The notes under the pieces were generated by a model, which worked only from the letters and a program-made list of their open reading frames with translations, was not told the origin of the DNA and searched no databases. This document shows, in pieces, positions 2,246 through 44,891 of a stretch of DNA of 59,496 nucleotides. Position 1 is the first letter of the stretch, and each line of letters opens with the position of its first letter. Both the position numbers and the translations under genes were made by a program. This stretch comes from an uncultured Prevotella sp. (GTDB taxonomy: Bacteria > Bacteroidota > Bacteroidia > Bacteroidales > Bacteroidaceae), in assembly GCA_944320255.1 (NCBI GenBank), contig CALUGU010000005.1, positions 1-59,496 on the forward strand, written 5' to 3'.

Positions 2246-3346
2246 TTATTGCTGTATAAAAGGCTTCAGCCCCTTGACGGCCTCGGCGGCGGTGATGCGG
2301 CGTCCGCCGTTGTCAAGGTCAATGAGTATGTAGCGGTCGTTGCCCATGCCAAGCTCCTTCATGTATGACAGCTGGCGCAGGCCGTGGCGCGTCTCGATGC
2401 GCTCCACGATGTCGTGGTGCTCGGCTTCTGTCATGGCGTAGATGAGGTCGATGCAGGCTTGGTCGAGCGCGAGGATGTCGGTTGACGAGAGTATGCCCAC
2501 GTTCGGCGTAACCACGGGCGCGGCGTTGACGCCCTCACAGTCGCACGACACCGACATGTTGCGCATCACGTTGACGTAGGTGATGTGGCGGCCGAAGTGG
2601 TCGATTACGGCTTTTGTCGATTCCGTCATGCGCTCCATAAACTCCTCTTTGGCAATGTCCCACTGGTTGTCTTGGTTTGGCGTTGTGTGAATCCACGCCT
2701 TTCCGATGCGCCCGTCGGCGCAGCCTATGCCGATGTTCTTGTTGCTTCCGCCGAAGCCTCCCTGTGAATGGCCCTTGAAGTGGGTGAGCACCACGAGCGA
2801 CTGGTAGTCCTTCAGGTGGCTGCCTACGGACATCTTCGTGAACCATTTGCCGCCGACGACGGGCAGCGTGGTGGTGTCTTCCTCGTCGATTATGTCCACG
2901 GGGCAGAACGTCCAGCCGTTCACCTTGAGCGTGTTGCGGTGCTGTTCGGTGGTGTAGCGGTCGCCCTTGTAGTAAGTGTTCGTCTCAATGATGCTGGCTT
3001 TGGGCAAGTCTTTCTGCATCAGAGCCTTCACCCATGCCGCCGGAATGATGTTCGGGCCGTTTTGCTCGCCCGTGTGCAGCTTTACGCCTGTGCGCCCGGT
3101 GATGTTGGCGTTCACCTGTTCGTAAGCCTTGATTAATCCTTCAGGTGTGAGATTGCGCGTGAAGTAGACAATCGACTCGTTGCCCGTGCGCTGTTCGTAA
3201 GGCACGTATTTGTTGCCGTCGGCGCCCGGAACGGGCTTCTGCTGTGCTTGGCCGGCATTGTTCCCCTGCGCCATTCCGCAGCTTGGAAACATCCCGCAGC
3301 CGATGAATGCCACCAGCATGGGTTTTACAAAATCCTTGATTTTCAT
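2246..3346 (-). CDS. DUF362 protein, exported, without ferredoxin domain
   Basis: The 366-residue protein has an N-terminal hydrophobic segment with Cys17 and Cys23 after small residues (FIGC, FPSC), which suggests a lipoprotein or other exported protein. The body matches DUF362: LTHFKGHSQGGFGGSNKNIG and the later acidic site around SSTDILALDQACID. It is a paralogue of the protein at 30487-31635, sharing the HFKGH and LALDQAC motifs, but it lacks the two CxxCxxC iron-sulfur motifs found there. The function of DUF362 is not established. A TAATTTTG box at 3436-3443 (minus strand) probably belongs to its promoter, 90 bases upstream of the start. Confidence 0.8.
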   Translation of the reverse strand: MKIKDFVKPMLVAFIGCGMFPSCGMAQGNNAGQAQQKPVPGADGNKYVPYEQRTGNESIVYFTRNLTPEGLIKAYEQVNANITGRTGVKLHTGEQNGPNIIPAAWVKALMQKDLPKASIIETNTYYKGDRYTTEQHRNTLKVNGWTFCPVDIIDEEDTTTLPVVGGKWFTKMSVGSHLKDYQSLVVLTHFKGHSQGGFGGSNKNIGIGCADGRIGKAWIHTTPNQDNQWDIAKEEFMERMTESTKAVIDHFGRHITYVNVMRNMSVSCDCEGVNAAPVVTPNVGILSSTDILALDQACIDLIYAMTEAEHHDIVERIETRHGLRQLSYMKELGMGNDRYILIDLDNGGRRITAAEAVKGLKPFIQQ

Positions 3347-4419: not shown

Positions 4420-4448
4420 ATCGTTAGGTATTGTTGTTTTTTTGTGAA

Positions 4449-4554
4449 GTTAAAGAATTTAGAGAAGTTACAGAAGTTAAAGCCATGACCTTTTATATAT
4501 TGAGGTGTAGAAACATTCGGCTCTAACTTCTGTAACTTCTCTAAACTCTTTAAC
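4449..4554. repeat. 36-bp inverted repeat between ftsH and cdsA (family E)
   Basis: The arms 4449-4484 and 4519-4554 match at 34 of 36 positions; the left arm starts GTTAAAGAATTTAGAG. The right arm contains the ftsH stop codon. On the minus strand this would act as a terminator or processing hairpin after ftsH. The arms are built of degenerate GAAGTTA units. Confidence 0.75.
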
Positions 4555-6571
4555 TTTTTTCGTCTGTCTTTTCATCGCCGGTACTTACTCCGGCAGTGGT
4601 TTTTCCGCCGTCGTCTTCGGCCTTGTCTTCTTCGTTGCCTGTTTCAGGGGCTTTGCCGTTTTCGCTTTCCATTATTTCTTCCGAACGGCTCACCCAAGGA
4701 CGCTTGCCAAAGATTTTCTCCACGTCTTCGGCGAATATCACCTCGCGCTCAAGCAGCAGCTCCGCCAGCTTGTTGTGCCCCTCCTTGTGCTTGTTAAGCA
4801 AGTCCTTGGCGCGCTGGTATTGCTCGTTTATCATGTTGAGCACTTCGTCGTCCATGATTTTCGCCGTTGTTTCGGAGTACGGCTTTTGGAAGTTGTATTC
4901 GTTGTTGTTATAATAGCAGATGTTTGGCAGCTTGTCGCTCATTCCAGCGTAAGCTATCATCCCGTAGGCGCTCTTTGTTACGCGCTCAAGGTCGTTCATC
5001 GCGCCGGTTGATATGTGACCGGTGAACAGCTCCTCGGCGGCGCGCCCTCCGAGTGTGGCGCACATCTCGTCGAGCATTTCCTCCTTCGTCGTTATCTGCC
5101 GTTCCTCAGGCATGTACCATGCCGCGCCCAACGCCCGTCCGCGTGGCACTATCGACACTTTGACTAACGGGTTGGCGTGTTCAAGGAACCATGATATGGT
5201 GGCGTGCCCGGCCTCGTGAAGTGCTATAGTGCGGCGTTCGCCTTCAGTCATTACTTTAGTCTTCTTCTCCAGTCCGCCGATTATTCGGTCTACGGCGTCG
5301 AGGAAGTCTTGTTTGCCCACGTGCGTTTTGTCGTGGCGGGCGGCTATCAGCGCAGCCTCGTTGCACACGTTGGCGATGTCGGCCCCGGAGAAGCCTGGAG
5401 TCTGACGTGCAAGCATGTCCACGTCCACCGTCGGGTCTATCTTCACGGGCTTCAAGTGCACCTTGAATATTTCCTTGCGCTCGTTCAGGTCGGGCAGGTC
5501 TACGTTTATCTGTCGGTCGAAACGTCCTGCGCGCAGCAACGCCGAGTCAAGCATGTCGGCGCGGTTGGTGGCGGCGAGGATTATCACACCGCTGTTCGTG
5601 CCGAAGCCGTCCATTTCGGTAAGCAGGGCGTTTAGCGTGTTTTCACGCTCGTCGTTGCCTCCCATCGCTGGATTTTTGCTGCGTGCGCGGCCTACGGCGT
5701 CGATTTCGTCAATGAAGATGATGCACGGCGACTTTTCCTTGGCTTGGCGGAACAGGTCGCGCACACGGCTTGCGCCGACGCCGACGAACATCTCTACGAA
5801 GTCAGAACCGCTCATCGAGAAGAACGGCACGCCGGCTTCGCCCGCTACGGCCTTGGCGAGCAGCGTCTTACCCGTCCCCGGAGGCCCTACGAGCAACGCT
5901 CCCTTTGGAATTTTTCCACCAAGGTCGGTATATTTTTTCGGGTTTTTCAGGAACTCAACGATTTCTTGCACTTCCTGTTTGGCACCGGCTTGTCCGGCCA
6001 CGTCTTTGAACGTGATGTTGATGTCAGCGCCTTTCTCATACATTTTCGCTTTGCTCTTGCCTACGTTGAACACGCCGCCGGCACCGCTGCCTCCGCCTCC
6101 GCTCATGCGCCTCCAAAGGTACATCCAGAGGAAAAAGAGCAGCAATATCGGGCCGAAGCTGAGCAATATGTTGAACAAGTCGTTGCCGCGCTTATTCTCA
6201 TAACTCAACTGTCCGTTGAACTTTCCTGTCTTTTTTTCAGCCTCGACGAAGGTTTCTATCTTGTCAACGCTGCCAAATTCAGTGGTGACATACGGCTTTG
6301 TGCCCGTGTTTTTCGCCCCTTGCTTGAATACGTCGCGGATGTTTTGCGGGTTGACGTACATCTTCAGGGTGCTTTCATCCTTGTTGATGACAATCTTTGA
6401 GGCGTATCCCTTGGCCACGAAGGTCTTAAATTCGTCGTAAGTAACCTTCTTGCTTGCGCTTCCGCGGGCGTCGCCGCCGAAAAGATACATCGCCACGAGG
6501 CCGAAAAGCACAAGCATATAAATCCAGTTCATGCTGAACTTTGGCCTCTTGTCGTTCTTATTTTGTTCCAT
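4550..6571 (-). CDS. ftsH: ATP-dependent zinc metalloprotease FtsH
   Basis: FtsH degrades misfolded and regulatory membrane proteins. The 673-residue product has two N-terminal transmembrane segments (about 14-31 and 133-153) around a periplasmic domain. The AAA+ module follows, with Walker A GPPGTGKT at 229-236, Walker B IIFIDEID near 284-291 and the second region of homology [18 protein letters not shown]. The peptidase zinc site is HEAGH at 452-456, with the third acidic ligand around GAMNDLERV. The C-terminal 40 residues are an acidic Lys/Glu/Asp tail. It starts 41 bases after rsfS and is probably co-transcribed with it. Confidence 0.96.
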
Positions 6572-7690: not shown

Positions 7691-7731
7691 GCCAAAGGCC
7701 GTATGTTGCATTGCAAAACACGGCCTTTGGC
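7691..7731. repeat. family A palindrome, copy 2
   Basis: GCCAAAGGCCGT (7691-7702) and ACGGCCTTTGGC (7720-7731) are a perfect 12-bp inverted repeat around a TTGCATTGCAAA core. It lies 40 bases beyond the stop of the TPR gene and could serve as its terminator. Confidence 0.6.
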
Positions 7732-10444: not shown

Positions 10445-10586
10445 ATAATCTGTTTTAGTTTGCAAGCCTCCAGACATGGCCCGGCGTTCCTTGGCGCGTC
10501 TCACTTTGCCTGTTGTGCTTGCGCCTTTTGGCCGCGCTTGTCTGCTTGTGCCTTGTCTGCTTGTTGACTAATATGTTATAGGTGTG

Positions 10587-12960: not shown

Positions 12961-13095
12961 CTGGCAATCAACGGCTTGCCATACGCTTTGCAAGATGCGG
13001 CAAATCGCATTTCAATTTACGGCAAACCGCAACGCAAAAGGCCGTCTTTCGCAATGCGAAAAACGGCCTTTTGCAAAACAGCTTGTTAACCGCTG
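12961..13095. repeat. family A repeat array, copy 3
   Basis: The array starts next to GCTGGCAATCAACGGC. It runs through units such as CAAGATGCGGCAAATCGC, TTTACGGCAAACCGC, GCAAAAGGCCGTCTTTCGC and AAAACGGCCTTTTGC, and ends at CAGCTTGTTAACCGCTG. GCAAAAGGCCGTCTTTCGC and GCGAAAAACGGCCTTTTGC are inverted copies. It sits between the acyltransferase start and the cotH stop and fills most of that 301-base gap. Confidence 0.75.
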
Positions 13096-16163: not shown

Positions 16164-16198
16164 AGCATTTAATTTTTTAATTAAAGGTTATTTTTTAG

Positions 16199-16303
16199 TT
16201 AAGAATTAAGAGTTAAGAATTAAGAAGAACACCTTTCTTGGCAGTTTTTCTTTTAGTGCGGCGAGGCATATTTTCTTAATTTTTAATTTTTAATTCTTAA
16301 TTA
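16199..16303. repeat. AT-rich inverted repeat of AATTAAG units (family E)
   Basis: The left arm 16199-16227 (AAGAATTAAGAGTTAAGAA...) and the imperfect right arm 16272-16303 (TTCTTAATTTTTAATTTTTA...) lie between the UPF0104 stop and the pepD start. The right arm overlaps the UPF0104 stop codon. The arms use the same words as the repeats at 35259 and 37637. Confidence 0.6.
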
Positions 16304-19934: not shown

Positions 19935-19940
19935 CGCCGC

Positions 19941-20063
19941 CGCCGTTTGCCGTCTCTTGCAGTGCAAAAGACCGTCTTTCGCATTGCAAGAGACGGCAAA
20001 TCGCAGCGCAAAAGGCCGTGTTCTGCAATGCCGTTCGTAACGTGCTGATTATCAATTAAGTAA
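19941..20063. repeat. family A repeat array, copy 5
   Basis: The array immediately follows the ppk stop. Units include TTTGCCGTCTCTTGC, GCAAAAGACCGTCTTTCGC, GCAAGAGACGGCAAATCGC and GCAAAAGGCCGTGTTCTGC, and it ends at GTAACGTGCTGATTATCAA. The opposite-facing GCCGTCTCTTGC / GCAAGAGACGGC pair gives a strong hairpin that may terminate ppk. Confidence 0.75.
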
Positions 20064-22008: not shown

Positions 22009-22020
22009 TATTTTCTTAGT

Positions 22021-22131
22021 AGTAAAGGAGTAAAAGTAGTAAAGGAGTTAAGACATTAGCCAACGTTGCTGTATTTATTATTAGCAACAAGGCATTTGTC
22101 TTAACTCCTTTACTCCTTTTACTCCTTTACT
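22021..22131. terminator. 35-bp inverted repeat between hsp20 and tlpA-like gene (family E)
   Basis: The arms 22021-22055 (AGTAAAGGAGTAAAAGTAG...) and 22097-22131 match at 34 of 35 positions. It separates convergent genes and is built from AGTAAAGG words. A bidirectional terminator is likely. Confidence 0.7.
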
Positions 22132-22147
22132 CCTTACTTCTTAAAAA

Positions 22148-23349: not shown

Positions 23350-23475
23350 ATGCGAAAGGCCGCAAACGGCGTCGCGATTGACGGTCTTTTGGCGTGCGAT
23401 TTGCCGTCTTTTACAAGCCAAAAGACGGCAAATTGGATGGCTATTGGTAACTTTTTGACAGTCAACAAGTTACAA
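23350..23475. repeat. family A repeat array, copy 6
   Basis: Units GCGAAAGGCCGC, GACGGTCTTTTGGCG, TTTGCCGTCTTTTAC and GCCAAAAGACGGCAAATTGG end at GGTAACTTTTTGACAGTCAAC. It lies in the divergent 359-base gap between the thioredoxin-like gene and the queuosine transporter. Confidence 0.75.
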
Positions 23476-24875: not shown

Positions 24876-24887
24876 GATAGCAGGCGA

Positions 24888-25243
24888 GCAGACAAGTGAC
24901 GAGCAGACAAGCCGTCAGAAACACCAAACACCCACCCCAACCCTCCCGAAGGGAGGGGGCTTAATATGCTTTTGAAGATATGCACGATCATAAGTTGATG
25001 ATTAAAAACATAATAAGCAAAGTCCGTTCAGCTATGAACGGACGGGTGACAGGCGTCCGTTTGCATATCGTTTTAAGTCTCACCTTATTTATATTAGCAC
25101 TCCCTGCATTATCCAAAAACTCCAACTCTGCTATTCAAAGCCCCTCCCTTGAGGAGGGTGTTGGGGTGGGTGTCATCTCCAAACCATCCAACGACACTGT
25201 TCAGAGCAGCCTTGTCTGCTCGTCTGCTTGTAACTTGTCTGCT
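24888..25243. repeat. nested inverted repeat pair around the patatin gene start (families D and C)
   Basis: The left side holds D words (GAGCAGACAAG twice, 24888-24921) then a C palindrome (24929-24960, CACCCACCCCAACCCTCCC...). The right side mirrors it: a C palindrome (25140-25172, ending GTTGGGGTGGGTG) then D words in reverse (CTTGTCTGCTCGTCTGC, 25211-25243). The start codon at 24980 lies in the loop. The whole right side is translated, as residues about 54-66 and 76-89 of the phospholipase. Confidence 0.7.
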
Positions 25244-27514
25244 AAAAAAAAGGTAGCTCTCGTCCTCAGCGGAGGCGGCGCCAAGGGTATGGCTCATATT
25301 GGAGTGTTGCGCGTTTTGGAGCGTGCCGGCATACCTGTGGACATCATCACGGGCACGTCGATGGGCGCGCTGATAGGCGGGTTGTACTCAATCGGCTACG
25401 ACGCGGAGACCTTGGACTCGCTCGTCAGCGTGCAAGACTGGAACGTCTTGCTGTCAGACCGCGTTGACGTGAGCAGCCAAAGCCTCGCCGAACGCGAGCT
25501 TCAGAACACTTACATACTGTCGCGTCCGCTGACGATAGCCAAGAAAGGGCGCAACGCTTCAGGCGGACTGATAAGCGGCAGCAACCTCTCGCGCCTCTTT
25601 ACACGGCTTACCGTGGGTTGGCATGACTCCATCGACTTCGCCTCGCTGCCCATTCCGTTCGCCTGCGTGGCCACGAACATCGTTGATAACACGGAGTATG
25701 ACTTCCACGGAGGCTATCTCGCCACGGCCATGAGGGCAAGCATGGCCATACCGGGGGTGTTCACTCCGGTGCGTTTAAAGCAGACAAGCAGACATGATAC
25801 AAGCAGACAAGCAGCCGAGGTATTGGCAAACAAGGAAAAAGAAAAGGGAATACAAGATAACAAGGTAACTTCACTTGTTGACTTGTCTGCTGTTGACTCG
25901 TCTGCTGTCAGTGAGCTTGTGCTCGTTGACGGCGGCCTGCGCAACAACTATCCGGCCGACGTTGCCAGGCGGATGGGCGCCGACGTGATAATAGGAGTGT
26001 CCGTACAGAGCGACCCGCGGACTGCCGACGAGCTGAAAAGCGGCCCTGACATACTGTTGCAAATCGTCGATTTGAACTGCAAGAACAAGTTTGAGGAGAA
26101 CTGGGCGATGACCGACATCCCGATAAAGGTAGACGTAAAGGGATACTCGTCGGCAAGTTTCAGCCGCGCGGCCATAGACACCCTCATAGCGCGCGGCGAG
26201 CAGGCGGCCATGAAACAGTGGCCTAAGCTGATGGAGCTGAAGCGCAAACTGGGTCTGGACGGCGTTGACGCGCGGCGACGTTTGCGGCGAACCGTGCCGT
26301 CGAGCGAGGCTTTGCTGTTCAAGATTGACTCCGTATGCTTCGACCGCATAGCCGAAGCCGACAGCCGCTACATCGTCTCGAAGTACGGCCTTGAGCGGGG
26401 AGACACGGTGTCGGCGAAGCGCATCGAGGAGGCGTTGACGGCCTTGGGCACAGTGTTTTTGTACACCAACGTGGGCTACAATGTCAACAAGTGCGGCGAC
26501 GGATACCTGCTGAGGATAACCGCCGAGGCGCGTAAGACCACGAGGATAAACCTCGGCGTGCGCTTCGACACCGAGGAGATGGTGGCCTTGCAGGCCAACA
26601 TGTCGCACCGGTTAGGCACGAGGACGCCCGTGGTGCTTGAGTTCACGGGCCGCCTGGGCAAGCGCATGATGGCCCGCGTAGACGCTTCCATTGTGCCGTT
26701 GCATTACGGCAAGATAGGCCTTTCGTATGTGTTCCGCCACGACGACATCAACATTTACGAGGACGGCAAGCGCGGTTACAACTTCACTTACAACCAACAC
26801 TCCGTGAATTTGCAGGCCTTGAGCTTCAACATTCGCAACTTCTCGTGCGACGTCAACGTGCGCGCCGACTTCTATGACTTCCACGACATACTTATTGGCC
26901 AGTCGGCGGCGGTGCAGAAACTCACCGACGTACACCTTTACAGCTACGCCTTCAACCTGAACTACGACTCTGAAGACCGCTGGTTTTTCACCACCCGCGG
27001 CGCAAGGTTCAAGGCCGGTTTCAGCTATAACACCGACAACTTCATCGGTTGGAACGGCCACGCCGGCATCAGCGTGCTCAACTTTTTGTGGCGCATGTCG
27101 TTCTCGATGAACAGCCGTTTCACCCTGCAACCCATGCTCTACGGGCGCATGCTGTCGGGCGGCGACGCACCTTTAATCATGCGCAACGCCGTGGGCGGGA
27201 TGTTCCACGGCCTTTACCTTGAGCACCAGATGCCCTTCGCCGGCATAGGCCACATAGAGTTCACCGAAGACGCGCTGCTCGCCCTCCAGCTGAAAGCCAG
27301 TCAGCGCATGGGCGACAACAACTATCTTATGGCGTCGCTGTCGCTCGGCCAGCGCGGCGACAAGCTCCGCGGCCTGTTCGACCGCGGCCCGATGTTCGGC
27401 TGCGAGGCGGCTTATTATTATGACAGCATGTTCGGTCCGATAGGCGCGTCGCTTGGATATTCAGGCCATACGGAACGTCCTTACTTCTACATCAACCTCG
27501 GTTTCCACTTCTAA
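24980..27514 (+). CDS. patatin-like phospholipase with Omp85-type C-terminal barrel
   Basis: The 844-residue protein has a signal peptide-like segment (about 27-45). The patatin domain starts near residue 93: GGGAKG at 98-103, GTSMG with nucleophile Ser127, and VDGGLRNNYP with the catalytic Asp near 317. A POTRA-like domain follows (about 435-520), then a beta-rich surface-antigen barrel ending FYINLGFHF with terminal Phe. This is the PlpD-like layout: a lipase passenger on its own outer-membrane barrel. Odd features: repeat sequence is translated between signal and patatin domain (about 54-89). About 45 extra residues (267-311) encoded by a GCAGACAAG palindrome sit between TPVRL and VLVDGG, directly beside the active-site Asp. 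Confidence 0.88.
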   Translation: MHDHKLMIKNIISKVRSAMNGRVTGVRLHIVLSLTLFILALPALSKNSNSAIQSPSLEEGVGVGVISKPSNDTVQSSLVCSSACNLSAKKKVALVLSGGGAKGMAHIGVLRVLERAGIPVDIITGTSMGALIGGLYSIGYDAETLDSLVSVQDWNVLLSDRVDVSSQSLAERELQNTYILSRPLTIAKKGRNASGGLISGSNLSRLFTRLTVGWHDSIDFASLPIPFACVATNIVDNTEYDFHGGYLATAMRASMAIPGVFTPVRLKQTSRHDTSRQAAEVLANKEKEKGIQDNKVTSLVDLSAVDSSAVSELVLVDGGLRNNYPADVARRMGADVIIGVSVQSDPRTADELKSGPDILLQIVDLNCKNKFEENWAMTDIPIKVDVKGYSSASFSRAAIDTLIARGEQAAMKQWPKLMELKRKLGLDGVDARRRLRRTVPSSEALLFKIDSVCFDRIAEADSRYIVSKYGLERGDTVSAKRIEEALTALGTVFLYTNVGYNVNKCGDGYLLRITAEARKTTRINLGVRFDTEEMVALQANMSHRLGTRTPVVLEFTGRLGKRMMARVDASIVPLHYGKIGLSYVFRHDDINIYEDGKRGYNFTYNQHSVNLQALSFNIRNFSCDVNVRADFYDFHDILIGQSAAVQKLTDVHLYSYAFNLNYDSEDRWFFTTRGARFKAGFSYNTDNFIGWNGHAGISVLNFLWRMSFSMNSRFTLQPMLYGRMLSGGDAPLIMRNAVGGMFHGLYLEHQMPFAGIGHIEFTEDALLALQLKASQRMGDNNYLMASLSLGQRGDKLRGLFDRGPMFGCEAAYYYDSMFGPIGASLGYSGHTERPYFYINLGFHF
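25778..25911. repeat. family D palindrome inserted in frame in the patatin gene
   Basis: The left arm AAGCAGACAAGCAGACATGA and a further CAAGCAGACAAGCAG face the right arm CTTGTTGACTTGTCTGCTG and CTCGTCTGCT. It closely resembles the intergenic repeat at 44764-44891. The reading frame runs straight through and adds about 45 residues in a place where relatives have only a short turn. Confidence 0.75.
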
Positions 27515-27572: not shown

Positions 27573-27668
27573 ATTGCCGTTTGCCGTCAAACGACTTGCG
27601 AAAAGCCGTCTCTTGCATCGTAAAAAGCCGTCTTTTGCGCTGTAAGAGACGGCCTTTTGCAAAGCGTC
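27573..27668. repeat. family A repeat array, copy 7
   Basis: Units TTTGCCGTCAAACGAC, GCGAAAAGCCGTCTCTTGC, GTAAAAAGCCGTCTTTTGC and GTAAGAGACGGCCTTTTGC. It occupies the gap between the phospholipase and the carboxyltransferase gene. Confidence 0.75.
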
Positions 27669-29702: not shown

Positions 29703-29711
29703 ATTAATTTG

Positions 29712-29820
29712 ATTGAAAATTGAGAATGGAGAATTGAAAATTATGATTACTCTTTCTGTTGAAATCCGTCAATAGCATAAGGTACTCATAATTTTCAATT
29801 CTCCATTCTCAATTTTCAAT
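29712..29820. repeat. perfect 35-bp inverted repeat (family E)
   Basis: The arms 29712-29746 (ATTGAAAATTGAGAATGGAG...) and 29786-29820 are perfectly complementary with a 39-base loop. It follows the carboxyltransferase stop by 9 bases and ends 17 bases before the HD gene, so it separates two same-strand genes. Confidence 0.85.
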
Positions 29821-29837
29821 TCAAAAAGACAAGAAAA

Positions 29838-30374
29838 ATGGACTATAACATTATCATCCAAAAGTATTACAAAGACAACCCCGAACTCCTCTCCATACTC
29901 TTGAAGCACAGCGAGGCCGTGGCCCGCAAGGCGTTGGCCATCGCCGACGCCCATCCGGAGCTGTGTCTTGACAAGCAGTTCATCCTTGAGGCGGCCATGG
30001 TTCACGACATCGGCATCGTCAAGACCGACGTTCCTGACATCAAATGTTTCGGCACTGAGCCGTACATACGCCACGGAGTGCTCGGCGCGGAGATGATGCG
30101 CGCCGAGGGATACGCGCGCCACGCCCGCGTCTGCGAACGCCACACGGGGGCCGGACTGTCGCTGCGTGAGATAGAAGAGCAGCGTCTTCCGCTGCCGCAC
30201 ACAGACCTCTTGCCGGAGACTTTGGAAGAAAAGGTGATATGTTATGCCGACAAGTTCTTCTCAAAAACAAAGCTCGACCGTGAGAAAACGCTTGGGCAGG
30301 CCGAGCGCAGCGTGGCCAAGCACGGAGAGGAAGGCCTGCGGAGATTTAAGGAAATGGAAAGACTCTTCGGGTAA
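29838..30374 (+). CDS. HD-domain phosphohydrolase
   Basis: The 178-residue protein has the HD superfamily metal site: His24 in LLKHSEAVARKAL, His56-Asp57 in EAAMVHDIGI, further His in YIRHGVLGAEMM and CERHTGAGLS, and an Asp in ICYADKFFSK. The layout fits the HDIG group of small stand-alone hydrolases acting on nucleotides or related phosphoesters. The actual substrate cannot be told. It may be read through from the carboxyltransferase gene if the hairpin between them does not terminate fully. Confidence 0.82.
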   Translation: MDYNIIIQKYYKDNPELLSILLKHSEAVARKALAIADAHPELCLDKQFILEAAMVHDIGIVKTDVPDIKCFGTEPYIRHGVLGAEMMRAEGYARHARVCERHTGAGLSLREIEEQRLPLPHTDLLPETLEEKVICYADKFFSKTKLDREKTLGQAERSVAKHGEEGLRRFKEMERLFG

Positions 30375-30482
30375 AGGTAAAAAGGTGAAAAAGTAAAAAG
30401 GTAAAACACATTATGGTGTTACTCATCTATGATACCGTCTGGAATGTGTTTTACCTTTTTACTTTTTCACCTTTTTACCTTT
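30373..30482. terminator. perfect 40-bp inverted repeat between convergent genes (family E)
   Basis: The arms 30373-30412 (AAAGGTAAAAAGGTGAAAAA...) and 30443-30482 are perfectly complementary with a 30-base loop. It begins at the HD gene stop and ends 5 bases before the stop of the opposing DUF362 gene. It is built from GGTAAAAA words and is likely a terminator for both genes. Confidence 0.85.
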
Positions 30483-30486
30483 AAAT

Positions 30487-32083: not shown

Positions 32084-32088
32084 GCAAG

Positions 32089-32194
32089 TCACGGCTTTTC
32101 GCCTTGCAATTTGCCGTCTTTTGGCGTGTAATTTGCCGTCTTTTGCAAGGTGGTTTACGGCAAATTGGCAAGGCGTTGACAGTCAGGCGGTTAC
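32089..32194. repeat. family A repeat array, copy 8
   Basis: Contains TTTGCCGTCTTTTGGCGTG and TTTGCCGTCTTTTGCAAGG exactly 22 bases apart, then TTTACGGCAAATTGGC, ending at GTTGACAGTCAGGCGGTTAC. It is followed by a GC-rich stretch (32200-32330) with no gene. Confidence 0.75.
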
Positions 32195-32409: not shown

Positions 32410-35256
32410 ATGAGAACAAAGACTGTGATATTCATTCTGTTGTCGGCTTTCATGTTCATGATGGCAGAACCTTCCATGCCTTTTTTCGGGCGAAACCATG
32501 CCGGCGACGGGTCAGTGGACTCGGCGGCGGTGGCTCGTGGCGCGCAGCCTGACTCGCTTTCGGCCGCCGATACGGCGGTTGTTGACTCGGCTGCGGCGTC
32601 GGCGGAGCCTGACACTACCAAGATGGACTCGCTCACCCTGGCCATATACAAGCACAACAAGCAGGTGGACGACTCGATACGCCTCGACAGCATGAACCGC
32701 AAGAAGTCGAACAGCCTCGACGCGCCGGTGGAGTTTTCGTCGGAAGACTCGCTCGTTTACGACGCCGCCTCACGCCGTGCCTGGCTTTACGGCAACTCCA
32801 ATGTGAAGTACCAGAACATGGATCTCAAGAGCGACCGCATACAGATGAGCCTCGACAGCAGCCTCGTGCACGCCACGGGAACGGCCGACACTACGGGCGA
32901 AGTGGAAGGAAAGCCCGTGTTCACGATGGGGCAGGACACTTACGAGAGCGACACGATGGCGTTCAACTTCAAGTCGAAAAAGGGCTTCATCAACAGCGTT
33001 TACACGGCCCAGCAGGACGGCTTCCTCTCAAGCGAGCAGTCGAAGCGCGACTCAAGCGGCGTGCTCTACCTGCAACATGGCCGCTACACCACGTGCGACC
33101 AGGAGCACCCCGACTTCTACATAGCCCTCTCGCGCGCCAAGGTGCGCCCCGGCAAGGACGTCGTTTTCGGCCCGGCCTACTTAGTGGTGGCCGACGTGCC
33201 CCTGCCCTTGGCCATCCCTTACGGCTTCTTCCCGTTCACGAAGAGCTATTCGAGCGGCTTCATCATGCCGAGCTACGGCGACGAGAGCTCGCGCGGCTTC
33301 TACCTGCGCGACGGCGGTTATTACTTCGCCGTGAGCGACAAGTGGGACTTGAAGCTCCTCGGCGAGATTTACACCAAAGGCTCGTGGGGAGTCTCCGTGG
33401 CGTCGAATTACCGCAAACGCTACCGTTACAGCGGCAGCTTCTTCTTCAGTTACCAGAACACCAAGAACGGCGACAAGGGCATGCCGGACTACACCGAACA
33501 GACGAGCTTCAAGCTGCAATGGAGCCACAGGCAGGACTCCAAGGCCAACCCGTTCACTTCTTTGTCGGCAAGCGTCAACTTCGCCTCGACGGCTTACGAG
33601 CGCAACAACCTCAACAGCATGTACAACCCGCAAAGCTACACCCAGAGCCTGCGCACGTCGAGCGTGAGCTGGAGCAGCACGTTCTCAAGCCTCGGACTGA
33701 CGCTCAGCGGTACGGCGAACCTCAGCCAGAACATGATTGACTCCACCATCAACCTCACCTTGCCCGACCTGAACATCTCGGTGAGCCGTTTCTACCCCTT
33801 CAAGCGCAAGCACATGGCCGGCAAGGAGCGTTGGTATGAGAAGATTTCGATGAGCTACACGGGACAGCTGCGCAACTCGATAGACACGAAGGAAGACCAG
33901 CTGTTCAAGTCGAACCTCATCAAGGATTGGCGCAACGGCTTCCAGCACAACATCCCGATACAGGCCAACTTCACCTTATTTAATTATATAAACATCAACC
34001 CGTCGTTCAATTTCACTGACAGGATGTACACCAACAAGGTGATGCAATCGTGGGACGAAGGCGCCCAGGTGGCGCACCCCGACACGGTGTACGGCTTTTA
34101 CAACGTCTACGACTGGCATCTCAGCCTCGGCGCCTCGACCAAACTTTACGGCTTCTGGGTGCCTAACAAAAAGATATTCGGCGACAAGATACAGGCTATC
34201 CGCCACGTCATAACGCCCTCGGTTACGTTCAGTTACGCCCCCGACAACGGTTCGCGATACTACGAAACCTACCAAAAGACCAACCCCGACGGCAGCGTAG
34301 AGCTGGTGGAATATTCGCCGTTCGCCAACAGCTTGTTCGGCGTGCCGTCGCGTGGGAAGACTGGAAGCATAACCTTCGACGTCAGCAACAACATCGAGAT
34401 GAAGATAAAGTCTGACAAAGACTCCACCGGATTTAAGAAGATAAGCATCATCGACGAGCTTGGTTTCAATATGGGCTACAACATGGCAGACAAGCAACGC
34501 CCTTGGAGCGACCTCTCCGTGAGGCTCCGCTTGAAGTGGTGGAAGAACTATACGTTCAATATGAACGCCGTGTTCGCCACCTACGCCTACGAGCTTGACG
34601 AGAACGGCACGCCCTATGTAGGCACGCACACCGAGTACAGCCGCGGCCGTTTCGGTCGTTTCCAGGGTATGTCGCAGAACATATCGTTCACCCTTACGCC
34701 GGAGAAGATAAAGAAATGGTTTGGCGGAGGCGATGACGAGGACGATGAAGAAGAGGAAGACGACGACCTCGACAACACCGACATTGAGACCAACGTTGAC
34801 GACGACCTTGTGCGCGGACTGCACGGGGCGCGCGATGAAGGCGCAGGAAAGGCGGAGACCGACGAGGACGGATATATGAAGTTCTCGATGCCTTGGTCGC
34901 TGACGTTCGGCTACGGCATCTCGATGAGGGAGAACCAAGACCCGGACAAGTTCAACAAGAAGACCATGCGCTATCCGTACAAGTTCACGCAGACGCTCAA
35001 CTTCAGCGGCAACATACGCATAAGCGACGGCTGGAACATAAGTTTCTCGTCGGGTTACGACTTCGAGAACCACGACATTTCAATGACAACGGCCTCGCTC
35101 CAGCGCGACCTTCACTGCTTCAATATGAGCTGCTCCGTAGTGCTTGCCCCTTATACGTCATACAACTTCTCGTTCCGCTGCAACGCCGCGACGCTCACCG
35201 ACGCCCTGAAATACGACAAGCGCAGCGGTTTCAGCAACGCAGTGCAGTGGTATTAG
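32410..35256 (+). CDS. lptD: putative LPS-assembly protein LptD (Bacteroidetes type)
   Basis: LptD is the outer-membrane barrel that inserts LPS into the outer leaflet. The 948-residue protein has an N-terminal signal segment and an Ala/Asp/Ser-rich linker. An OstA/LptA-like beta-jellyroll follows (about 110-260; YDAASRRAWLYGNSNVKYQN, then DSSGVLYLQHGRYTTCDQEH). A long barrel region follows, with alternating aromatic strands and IPYGFFPFTKSYSSGFIMP. It is about 160 residues longer than E. coli LptD, as usual in Bacteroidetes. A highly acidic segment (GGGDDEDDEEEEDDDLDN, about residues 772-790) interrupts the C-terminal barrel, probably as a large loop. Own promoter just upstream. Confidence 0.85.
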   Translation: MRTKTVIFILLSAFMFMMAEPSMPFFGRNHAGDGSVDSAAVARGAQPDSLSAADTAVVDSAAASAEPDTTKMDSLTLAIYKHNKQVDDSIRLDSMNRKKSNSLDAPVEFSSEDSLVYDAASRRAWLYGNSNVKYQNMDLKSDRIQMSLDSSLVHATGTADTTGEVEGKPVFTMGQDTYESDTMAFNFKSKKGFINSVYTAQQDGFLSSEQSKRDSSGVLYLQHGRYTTCDQEHPDFYIALSRAKVRPGKDVVFGPAYLVVADVPLPLAIPYGFFPFTKSYSSGFIMPSYGDESSRGFYLRDGGYYFAVSDKWDLKLLGEIYTKGSWGVSVASNYRKRYRYSGSFFFSYQNTKNGDKGMPDYTEQTSFKLQWSHRQDSKANPFTSLSASVNFASTAYERNNLNSMYNPQSYTQSLRTSSVSWSSTFSSLGLTLSGTANLSQNMIDSTINLTLPDLNISVSRFYPFKRKHMAGKERWYEKISMSYTGQLRNSIDTKEDQLFKSNLIKDWRNGFQHNIPIQANFTLFNYININPSFNFTDRMYTNKVMQSWDEGAQVAHPDTVYGFYNVYDWHLSLGASTKLYGFWVPNKKIFGDKIQAIRHVITPSVTFSYAPDNGSRYYETYQKTNPDGSVELVEYSPFANSLFGVPSRGKTGSITFDVSNNIEMKIKSDKDSTGFKKISIIDELGFNMGYNMADKQRPWSDLSVRLRLKWWKNYTFNMNAVFATYAYELDENGTPYVGTHTEYSRGRFGRFQGMSQNISFTLTPEKIKKWFGGGDDEDDEEEEDDDLDNTDIETNVDDDLVRGLHGARDEGAGKAETDEDGYMKFSMPWSLTFGYGISMRENQDPDKFNKKTMRYPYKFTQTLNFSGNIRISDGWNISFSSGYDFENHDISMTTASLQRDLHCFNMSCSVVLAPYTSYNFSFRCNAATLTDALKYDKRSGFSNAVQWY

Positions 35257-35258
35257 GA

Positions 35259-35338
35259 AATTAAGAATTAAGAGTTAAGAATTAAGAAAATATGCCACGT
35301 TGGTAATTTTCTTAATTCTTAACTCTTAATTCTTAATT
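35259..35338. terminator. perfect 33-bp inverted repeat between lptD and the antiporter gene (family E)
   Basis: The arms 35259-35291 (AATTAAGAATTAAGAGTTAA...) and 35306-35338 are perfectly complementary with a 14-base loop. It separates convergent genes; a bidirectional terminator is likely. Confidence 0.85.
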
Positions 35339-37605: not shown

Positions 37606-37636
37606 ATTGTTGTATCTGTTATGTGATAAAACTAAA

Positions 37637-37717
37637 AATTAAGAGTTAAGGAATAAGAAAAATACTTACACCATTGTGCCGGCAAGATATATTTTTCTTA
37701 TTCCTTAACCCTTAATC
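37637..37717. repeat. 28-bp inverted repeat between pepT and antiporter gene (family E)
   Basis: The arms 37637-37664 (AATTAAGAGTTAAGGAATAA...) and 37690-37717 pair with two mismatches. Same AATTAAG words as at 16199 and 35259. It lies after the pepT stop on the minus strand. Confidence 0.7.
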
Positions 37718-37735
37718 CTTAATTATTTATATGTC

Positions 37736-39251: not shown

Positions 39252-39340
39252 TCAATTCACGGCTTTTCGTGTTACGATTTGCCGTCTTTTACAGCGTAAT
39301 TCACGGCCTTTTACAGCGTAATTCACGGCCTTTTGCAAAA
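39252..39340. repeat. family A repeat array, copy 9 (clear 22-bp tandem)
   Basis: TTTGCCGTCTTTT is followed by two identical 22-base units (ACAGCGTAATTCACGGCCTT plus TT) and then GC. This is the cleanest example of the 22-base period. It lies 55 bases before the recombinase gene. The rest of the 435-base gap holds only the pepT promoter. Confidence 0.8.
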
Positions 39341-44762: not shown

Positions 44763-44763
44763 T

Positions 44764-44891
44764 ATCAGACAAGTGACAAGCAGACAAGCAGACAAGCAGT
44801 CAGTAACAAGCAGACAAGTTAACAGCAAACAAGGCAAATTTCCTTGTCTGCTCGTCACTGTGAACTTGTCTGCTAAAAAATGAACTTGTCA
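44764..44891. repeat. family D palindrome between kinase and nucleotidyltransferase genes
   Basis: The left arm has CAGACAAGTGACAAGCAGAC and further GCAGACAAG words; the right arm has CTTGTCTGCTCGTCAC and ACTTGTCTGCT. It is the same repeat as the one inserted in the patatin gene at 25778-25911. Confidence 0.75.

Follow-up and report, generated by a model that had tools for sequence, protein, structure and literature searches.

A dispersed palindromic repeat within the open reading frame of a patatin-like gene of Prevotella

The window analysed here is a 59,496-nucleotide (nt) stretch of an uncultured Prevotella sp. (assembly GCA_944320255.1, contig CALUGU010000005.1; this genome is G000 below). 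On its forward strand it carries a gene (24980..27514) for an 844-residue, PlpD-like protein, a patatin-like phospholipase with a C-terminal OMP85-type barrel. The protein matched the Pfam families PF01734 (E 3.1e-30, residues 94-329) and PF19143 (E 3.1e-9), and its top relative of solved structure was PlpD itself (5fqu, E 1.8e-45). Two residues were the same in 27 of 27 aligned rows: Ser127 of GTSMG (codon 25358..25360, forward strand), which we take to be the nucleophile, and Asp317 of VDGG (25928..25930, forward strand), presumably the catalytic aspartate. Next to VDGG the reading frame runs through a palindrome built of the word GCAGACAAG, a repeat that recurs across this genome. This coding palindrome is the subject of the present report.

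The palindrome in the patatin gene and its dispersed copies

The insert region spans 147 nt in frame (25775..25921, forward strand) and reads LKQTSRHDTSRQAAEVLANKEKEKGIQDNKVTSLVDLSAVDSSAVSELV between TPVR and LVDGG. Compared with the insert-free relative L065, the window gene is longer by 132 nt, or 44 residues. A first-pass annotation of this DNA had put the addition at about 45; the insert is real and the figure needs only this correction. GCAGACAAG words make up the 5' arm (25779..25812, forward strand) and CTTGTCTGC words the 3' arm (25882..25906, reverse strand), with 76% complementarity between 25787-25811 and 25882-25906. None of 200 codon shuffles equalled the arm score of the insert, and a simpler mononucleotide test gave 1 in 500. 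The frame is unbroken, as the annotation had said: the coding frame contains no stop across the insert, and the remaining forward frames contain 2 and 5.

Aligned with the PlpD chain, residues 181 and 185 of the latter pair with residues 266 and 314 of the window protein. An AlphaFold model built on the 27-row alignment had a mean predicted local distance difference test score (pLDDT) of 69.6, with values of 86-91 at residues 91-150, 49-83 at residues 151-260 and below 50 at residues 267-322, VDGG included. The insert had been described as lying in the active-site region. In sequence this is right, since it adjoins VDGG; its position in space is unsupported at such low pLDDT.

Two more arrays of the repeat flank or enter the same gene. 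One, of GCAGACAAG words, lies 5' of the start codon (24879..24912, forward strand). The other (SLVCSSACNLSA, 25211..25243, reverse strand) runs in the opposite direction, in frame, through the N-terminal part of the protein, and was absent from the first-pass annotation. The second array is a reverse match to the first, and the two could be the arms of one large imperfect palindrome.

The repeat is dispersed, and the counts bear out the earlier claim to that effect. Exact GCAGACAAG occurs 15 times in the window against 0.37 expected (maximum 2 in 100 shuffles), and the 17-mer GCAGACAAGCAGACAAG, with at most one mismatch, at 88 places, some overlapping, in the 2.75 Mb genome against 1 for the reversed control. 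Its spread is limited: the two-arm pattern was found in 7 of 299 genomes of the genus, four with at least seven matches and three with one, and a separate scan also found it in G060 and G063 and not in G061. The relatives found are records from Prevotella and other Bacteroidales.

To describe the form of the copies we scored 133 clusters, each with three or more words, from stretches of G000 (66), G106 (41) and G004 (26), which were chosen by repeat matches and are no random sample. Two converging arms were seen in 89 clusters and diverging arms in none; 2 were mixed and 42 had one arm, which is something of an overcount, since arms with over 90 nt between them were scored as separate clusters. 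Cluster length ranged from 24 to 400 nt, with variable ends. Purine share was measured for 19 of 25 listed inverted repeats. In the 5' arm it was 0.67-0.79 for all but one of the 11 word-array palindromes, including that in the patatin gene, and 0.56 for the exception; the other 8 palindromes gave 0.43-0.59.

The first-pass annotation had called an intergenic copy at 44764-44891 almost the same as the coding palindrome. The two are related (local score 84, against a maximum of 38 in 200 shuffles), but many indels separate them and the wording was too strong. In relatives, the spacer of this palindrome (44763..44880, no strand assigned) contains 73 nt of the family in G062 and 298 nt in G060. 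We dropped it as a clean swap of one family for another because the 298 nt of G060 contain a short degenerate GCAGACAAG-type hairpin, together with sequence like a family of 22-nt modules described below.

Unrelated palindromes at one site and copies in other genes

We examined 82 patatin loci (L031-L112), in which some genomes are present twice and some of the shorter open reading frames (ORFs) are probably patatin paralogues; 77 gave an ORF and 5 did not. The span at the insert site was 18 residues in 65 of the 77 and longer in 6, and the searched motif was missing in 6. That relatives have a short turn here is true of most of them. The longer spans belong to the window (L031) and four sister species (L061 with its duplicate L032, L062, L063 and L064), and a further insert-bearing gene, L156 from G106, lies outside the set. 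With five flanking codons included, the insert measures 147 nt in the window, L061, L062 and L064, 192 nt in L063 and 108 nt in L156, against 15 nt in L065. The last is one of the insert-free orthologues that the first-pass annotation had proposed to look for, and it is about as distant from the window gene as the insert-bearing L064 (flank identity 74.0 vs 75.5%).

Comparison of the inserts as DNA separated them into two groups. The window, L064 and L156 form the first (within-group z 3.8-5.9) and L061, L062 and L063 the second (z 14.0-16.8). Between the groups z ran from -1.4 to 2.0, and the top pair, L156/L063, was equalled by 10 of 300 shuffles. Homology of the two types through their middle parts, which look alike by eye, was rejected on these values and on protein z of -1.5 to 1.0. 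Likeness within the first group may reflect, in part, common words and not descent. The inserts of the second group are an AT-rich AATTGAGAATGGAG palindrome, whose 18-mer (one mismatch) was matched in 5 of 11 genomes (G000, G004, G060, G061 and G010); the reversed control outnumbered the pattern in two of these, G000 and G060, because the AT-rich word is unspecific. These inserts of another family were absent from the first-pass annotation. It had named orthologues that lack the repeat and still have the extra residues as evidence against an insertion, and such orthologues exist in part, because three sister species carry the unrelated palindrome at the site; their residues are unrelated to those of the window. 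The site is thus not special to GCAGACAAG.

Trees of the flanks placed the window gene in a clade with L061-L063 (support 100/99), with L062 as its weakly supported sister (94/91 and 87/96). The gene neighbourhood is alike in L061-L064 for two genes upstream and one downstream; a third upstream gene was not found in L061. All six inserts are free of stops in the coding frame, against 1 to 10 in the other forward frames. In G000, G004, G060, G061 and G106, none of 200 codon shuffles reached the patatin arm score. The ratio of nonsynonymous to synonymous substitution (dN/dS) in the flanks was 0.08-0.11 among the four closest patatins and 0.08-0.09 among L061-L063. As a separate observation, the N-terminus of the L061 patatin, from about position 3200, carries a repeat unit in tandem, in frame (CLSARDSSAAKKSLV), after the signal peptide.

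A spacer of the window (29703..29837, no strand assigned) contains the AATTGAGAATGGAG palindrome, the family found at the patatin site in the three sisters. The window, L061 and L063 share one hairpin family in this spacer, and L064 has a different palindrome. Among 50 arm pairs in the three sequences, 5 had changed on both sides, a count reached by 3 of 500 shuffles and by none of the slid controls. Despite the unrelated palindromes, lengths are equal across species both here (135 nt, L064 7602-7736) and in the insert 25775-25921 (147 nt), which would be chance or length-preserving rewriting.

Copies in other genes were picked by an open frame through the repeat; the informative part is a conserved protein on both sides together with a stretch absent in relatives. 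The first-pass annotation had suggested a search for further genes with in-frame GCAGACAAG palindromes, and this genome has them. In an aldo/keto reductase the insert lies between iron-sulphur (Fe-S) cysteine motifs in G000, G004, G062 and G061 and is absent from G060, G063 and the other scored relatives. Between the motifs there are 110 residues in the G000 protein and 96 in those of G004, G062 and G061, compared with 73-80 in the 12 others scored, that of G060 included. Of 200 codon shuffles, none equalled the arm score in G000, G004 and G062, 2 did so in G061 and 199 in the insert-free G060. In G000 the protein at L004 is longer by 14 residues with GCAGACAAGCAGACAAG, which are missing from 10 of 10 aligned relatives, among them those of G060 (95% identity) and G004 (89%); here the insertion is confined to a single lineage. 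No target-site duplication was visible at this one near-empty site compared, where the orthologue pair is too distant for certainty. Another in-frame array of G000 lies in the protein at L001, which like that at L004 had no Pfam match, and one more in the tail of a mechanosensitive channel.

The loop of a HisKA_3 histidine kinase carries GCAGACAAG in G004 and G106 and a different word, CCCCTCCC, in G000. From ELHDG to SHELMP the span is 174 residues in G106, 107 in G004, 77 in G000, 76 in G060 and 54 in G061; the motif missed G063 and G006. No codon shuffle out of 200 reached the arm score in G000, G004 and G106, against 193 in G061. The HisKA_3 match was slightly below the curated cut-off and ended at profile position 24 of 68, at the start of the array.

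A methyltransferase/B12 protein has two linkers with GCAGACAAG words and further repeat words that differ by species; in G000 these arrays run in a single direction only. Like the low-pLDDT stretch of the patatin, these inter-domain linkers are places where the repeat is found. In-frame arrays with arm scores above all 200 codon shuffles were also found in an epimerase of G004 (the one sequence scored) and in a polyferredoxin of G106. The polyferredoxin linker was weakened as a second clear family swap because the plain linker of G006 is also 81 nt and the arms of G000 and G062 stand only somewhat above shuffles. Nine repeat-spanning ORFs (L007, L010, L016, L024, L113, L119, L120, L127 and L137) were, by eye, probably antisense, spacer or run-on frames and were excluded from the genes. 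Separately, a single ORF of G106 runs from ThiD into ThiE across a GCAGACAAG palindrome where the two meet (L208, 680-2218), a putative fusion.

How the coding palindromes may have arisen

Our reading, which we think probable, is of a coding palindromic repeat in a lineage with several dispersed families of 7-9 nt word arrays that often form two converging hairpin arms. The first-pass annotation had read it as the insertion of one palindrome; word arrays in several families, without a fixed-length element, fit that reading only in part. On our account, short word arrays would be copied to new places; one lineage-specific in-frame insert was observed. Template switching at the replication fork may then produce the second arm as a reverse complement of the first and keep the arms complementary, which fits the compensatory changes in the spacer at 29703-29837; such switching is able to make and maintain hairpins, according to the part of PMC8794818 that bears on this. 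Selection would purge copies that break a frame or a protein core, leaving genic copies in loops, linkers and tails, the positions observed in several genes. A tolerant loop could be reused, so that sister species come to hold unrelated families at one site. The patatin loop is most likely without a function of its own, and neutral filling of the loop is probably what we see.

Several points weigh against this account. Apart from the patatin, the genic copies were selected for open frames, and therefore their frames are open by construction and gene-breaking copies would have escaped notice. Translation of the insert is itself presumed from its open frame. The AlphaFold model does not place the loop clear of the active site, as its low-confidence stretch takes in VDGG. 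Exactly 147 nt in 4 of 6 patatin inserts, despite two unrelated groups, is not what plain replacement would predict. The number of family switches at the patatin site is uncertain, with the AT-rich type as one clade at p = 0.055 in the approximately unbiased test. Some members are weakly palindromic: the patatin insert of G062 (13 of 200 codon shuffles as high), the kinase of G060 (16 of 200) and the polyferredoxin linkers of G062 (3 of 200) and G000 (8 of 200), with 44 of 200 in the plain linker of G006. In the spacer at 29703-29837 the number of further pair types was ordinary (equalled in 184 of 500 shuffles), compensatory changes of this kind would also follow from selection on an RNA hairpin, and single switch events were not reconstructed. 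Finally, dN/dS of the insert among L061-L063, about 0.34-0.59, exceeds that of the flanks and is below 1; the insert is therefore freer to evolve and perhaps still constrained.

A bolder version of the favoured account, which we hold only tentatively, is that a multi-family system repeatedly overwrites hairpin arms in place, at tolerant loops and spacers, from a genome-wide stock of words by template switching, with the frame and at times the length kept; one loop of a conserved enzyme would then turn into unrelated sequence from one sister species to the next. If true, in-place rewriting would supply disordered loops by mutation on a lasting basis, and would do so outside the eroding intracellular parasites.

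Among the alternatives, the least unlikely is a mobile palindromic element, either a miniature inverted-repeat transposable element (MITE) or one of the type of repetitive extragenic palindromes (REPs) and their associated tyrosine transposases (REP/RAYT), moved by a transposase in trans and sometimes landing in frame in genes. Many dispersed copies of one family, a narrow distribution and a one-lineage insertion would all follow from it, and the Rickettsia palindromic elements (RPEs) are called transposable in a passage of PMC6649704. Yet ends and length are not fixed (24 to 400 nt, up to 42 of 133 clusters one-armed), and target-site duplication was not visible at the single near-empty site compared. 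The Y1 transposase family PF01797, the one transposase family that the search covered, matched twice in G000, once each in G004, G060, G061 and G062 and not at all in the repeat-carrying G106 and G063. Its presence does not track the repeat, and mobilisation by a REP-type Y1 transposase was rejected. A viral carrier was likewise rejected, as the 22 viral contigs with an exact two-arm match had only a single such match apiece and lacked clusters. So was a known RNA family, since Rfam at its gathering threshold gave only a tRNA in the window.

It is improbable that the loop was selected for protein function, for example as a linker of set length, with the repeat as mere raw material. The 147 nt common to the window, L061, L062 and L064, the presence of an insert in 4 of the 5 nearest relatives (L061-L065) and in G106, and an insert dN/dS below 1 are what such selection could leave. 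Against it stand the unrelated sequences at the site, the 192 nt of L063 and 108 nt of G106, the insert-free L065, the pLDDT below 50, and the occurrence of the same repeat in unrelated proteins.

Very unlikely is that the insert is missing from the working protein through ribosomal bypass or other removal, as happens with hairpin elements of certain mitochondrial genes. Long hairpins within conserved genes recall such cases, and PMC6649704 cites, in the passage concerned, untranslated palindromic elements handled by translational bypassing in a yeast mitochondrion; bypass needs no open frame, and the stop-free coding frame of all six patatin inserts, against 1 to 10 stops in the other forward frames, therefore counts against it. 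Misjoined repeats are hardly credible, despite the 146 contigs of the window genome and sister records that are metagenome-assembled genomes, as same-site inserts occur in independent assemblies and the patatin neighbours are conserved in L061-L064.

Relation to known repeats, and other repeats of the window

The first-pass annotation had likened the palindrome to RPEs, and as a comparison of ways of working this appears apt. RPEs are described in the relevant parts of PMC3767692 and PMC10969869 as dispersed palindromes of about 100-150 bp within ORFs, with the frame intact, at solvent-exposed sites. Genes of Rickettsia japonica have different RPE groups at one locus, for which the authors, in the portion of PMC3767692 concerned, left hotspots versus divergence undecided. 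Coding RPEs lose repeat identity over time (as stated in part of PMC6649704), and in-frame MITE fusions are not unusual, with RPEs the extreme case, in the relevant section of a review (PMC10969869). Like the Rickettsia and Wolbachia elements, the Prevotella repeat is dispersed, has many copies, lies in frame and shows different groups at one locus. Unlike them, it belongs to another phylum, consists of 7-9 nt word arrays of variable number, has some one-arm copies and varies more in length, and its two families at the patatin site have no detectable common sequence. Judged by published descriptions, it seems to work like RPEs; we do not class it as one because of its variable ends, its one-arm copies and its phylum.

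Other known repeats resemble it less. REPs are also short, palindromic, dispersed and numerous, but they are usually extragenic and of 14-40 nt in Escherichia coli (from part of PMC12306157), whereas the Prevotella copies are longer and some, in several genes, are coding. Unlike a MITE, the repeat has no fixed terminal inverted repeats, given its variable ends and lengths and up to 42 of 133 one-armed clusters. BrickBuilt MITEs of Porphyromonas gingivalis are dispersed repeats in a Bacteroidales bacterium too; a title cited in the pertinent passage of PMC10969869 names a minisatellite within a MITE, and they are given there as strictly intergenic, unlike the partly coding Prevotella repeat. 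The mitochondrial palindromes of Nematomorpha also lie within translated genes, and template switching is suggested as a possible mechanism for them; by the account in part of PMC6649704, however, their arms are perfect and both encode conserved protein, whereas the Prevotella repeat adds unconserved residues and is dispersed genome-wide. The palindromic amphipathic repeat coding sequences of Mollicutes and others likewise put palindromic repeats in coding sequence; they are intragenic tandem repeats in the portion of PMC2996958 describing them, and are set apart by description only.

In-frame coding palindromes are best documented in Rickettsia and Wolbachia, whose intracellular life makes weak selection a ready explanation. 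With such behaviour in Prevotella, weak selection would no longer be the sole explanation. The behaviour itself is known from RPEs; no earlier report of in-frame coding palindromes in Bacteroidota was found in the open-access literature, and within that literature their occurrence in this phylum is apparently unreported. Several sister species of Prevotella also allow gain, loss and exchange of families to be traced at one site. In addition, loops made of repeats can mislead homology searches, as where the HisKA_3 match stops at the insert, and should not be taken for functional domains.

Other repeats of the window were recorded alongside. A GCAGACAAG array lies at 10537..10561 (reverse strand) and a lone GCAGACAAG word at 34486..34494 (forward strand). 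A palindrome family of the CCCACCCCAACCCTCCC / GGGAGGGG type, coding in part, occurs at about 24930-24962 and 25140-25175, in the L138 polyferredoxin linker and in the L240 kinase loop. The family of 22-nt modules (GCAAAAGGCCGTCTTTTGC) is found at 1632-1709, 7691-7731, 13034-13074, 19938-20035, 23353-23433, 27591-27667, 32085-32183 and 39253-39329, and a copy at L163 is in frame within a methyltransferase linker. Several other palindromes, each composed of short purine words high in AT and with purines prevailing in the 5' arm, lie at 30372-30483, 29712-29820, 4447-4556, 22018-22134, 2155-2239, 35259-35338, 37630-37724 and 16196-16303 and are possibly bidirectional terminators.
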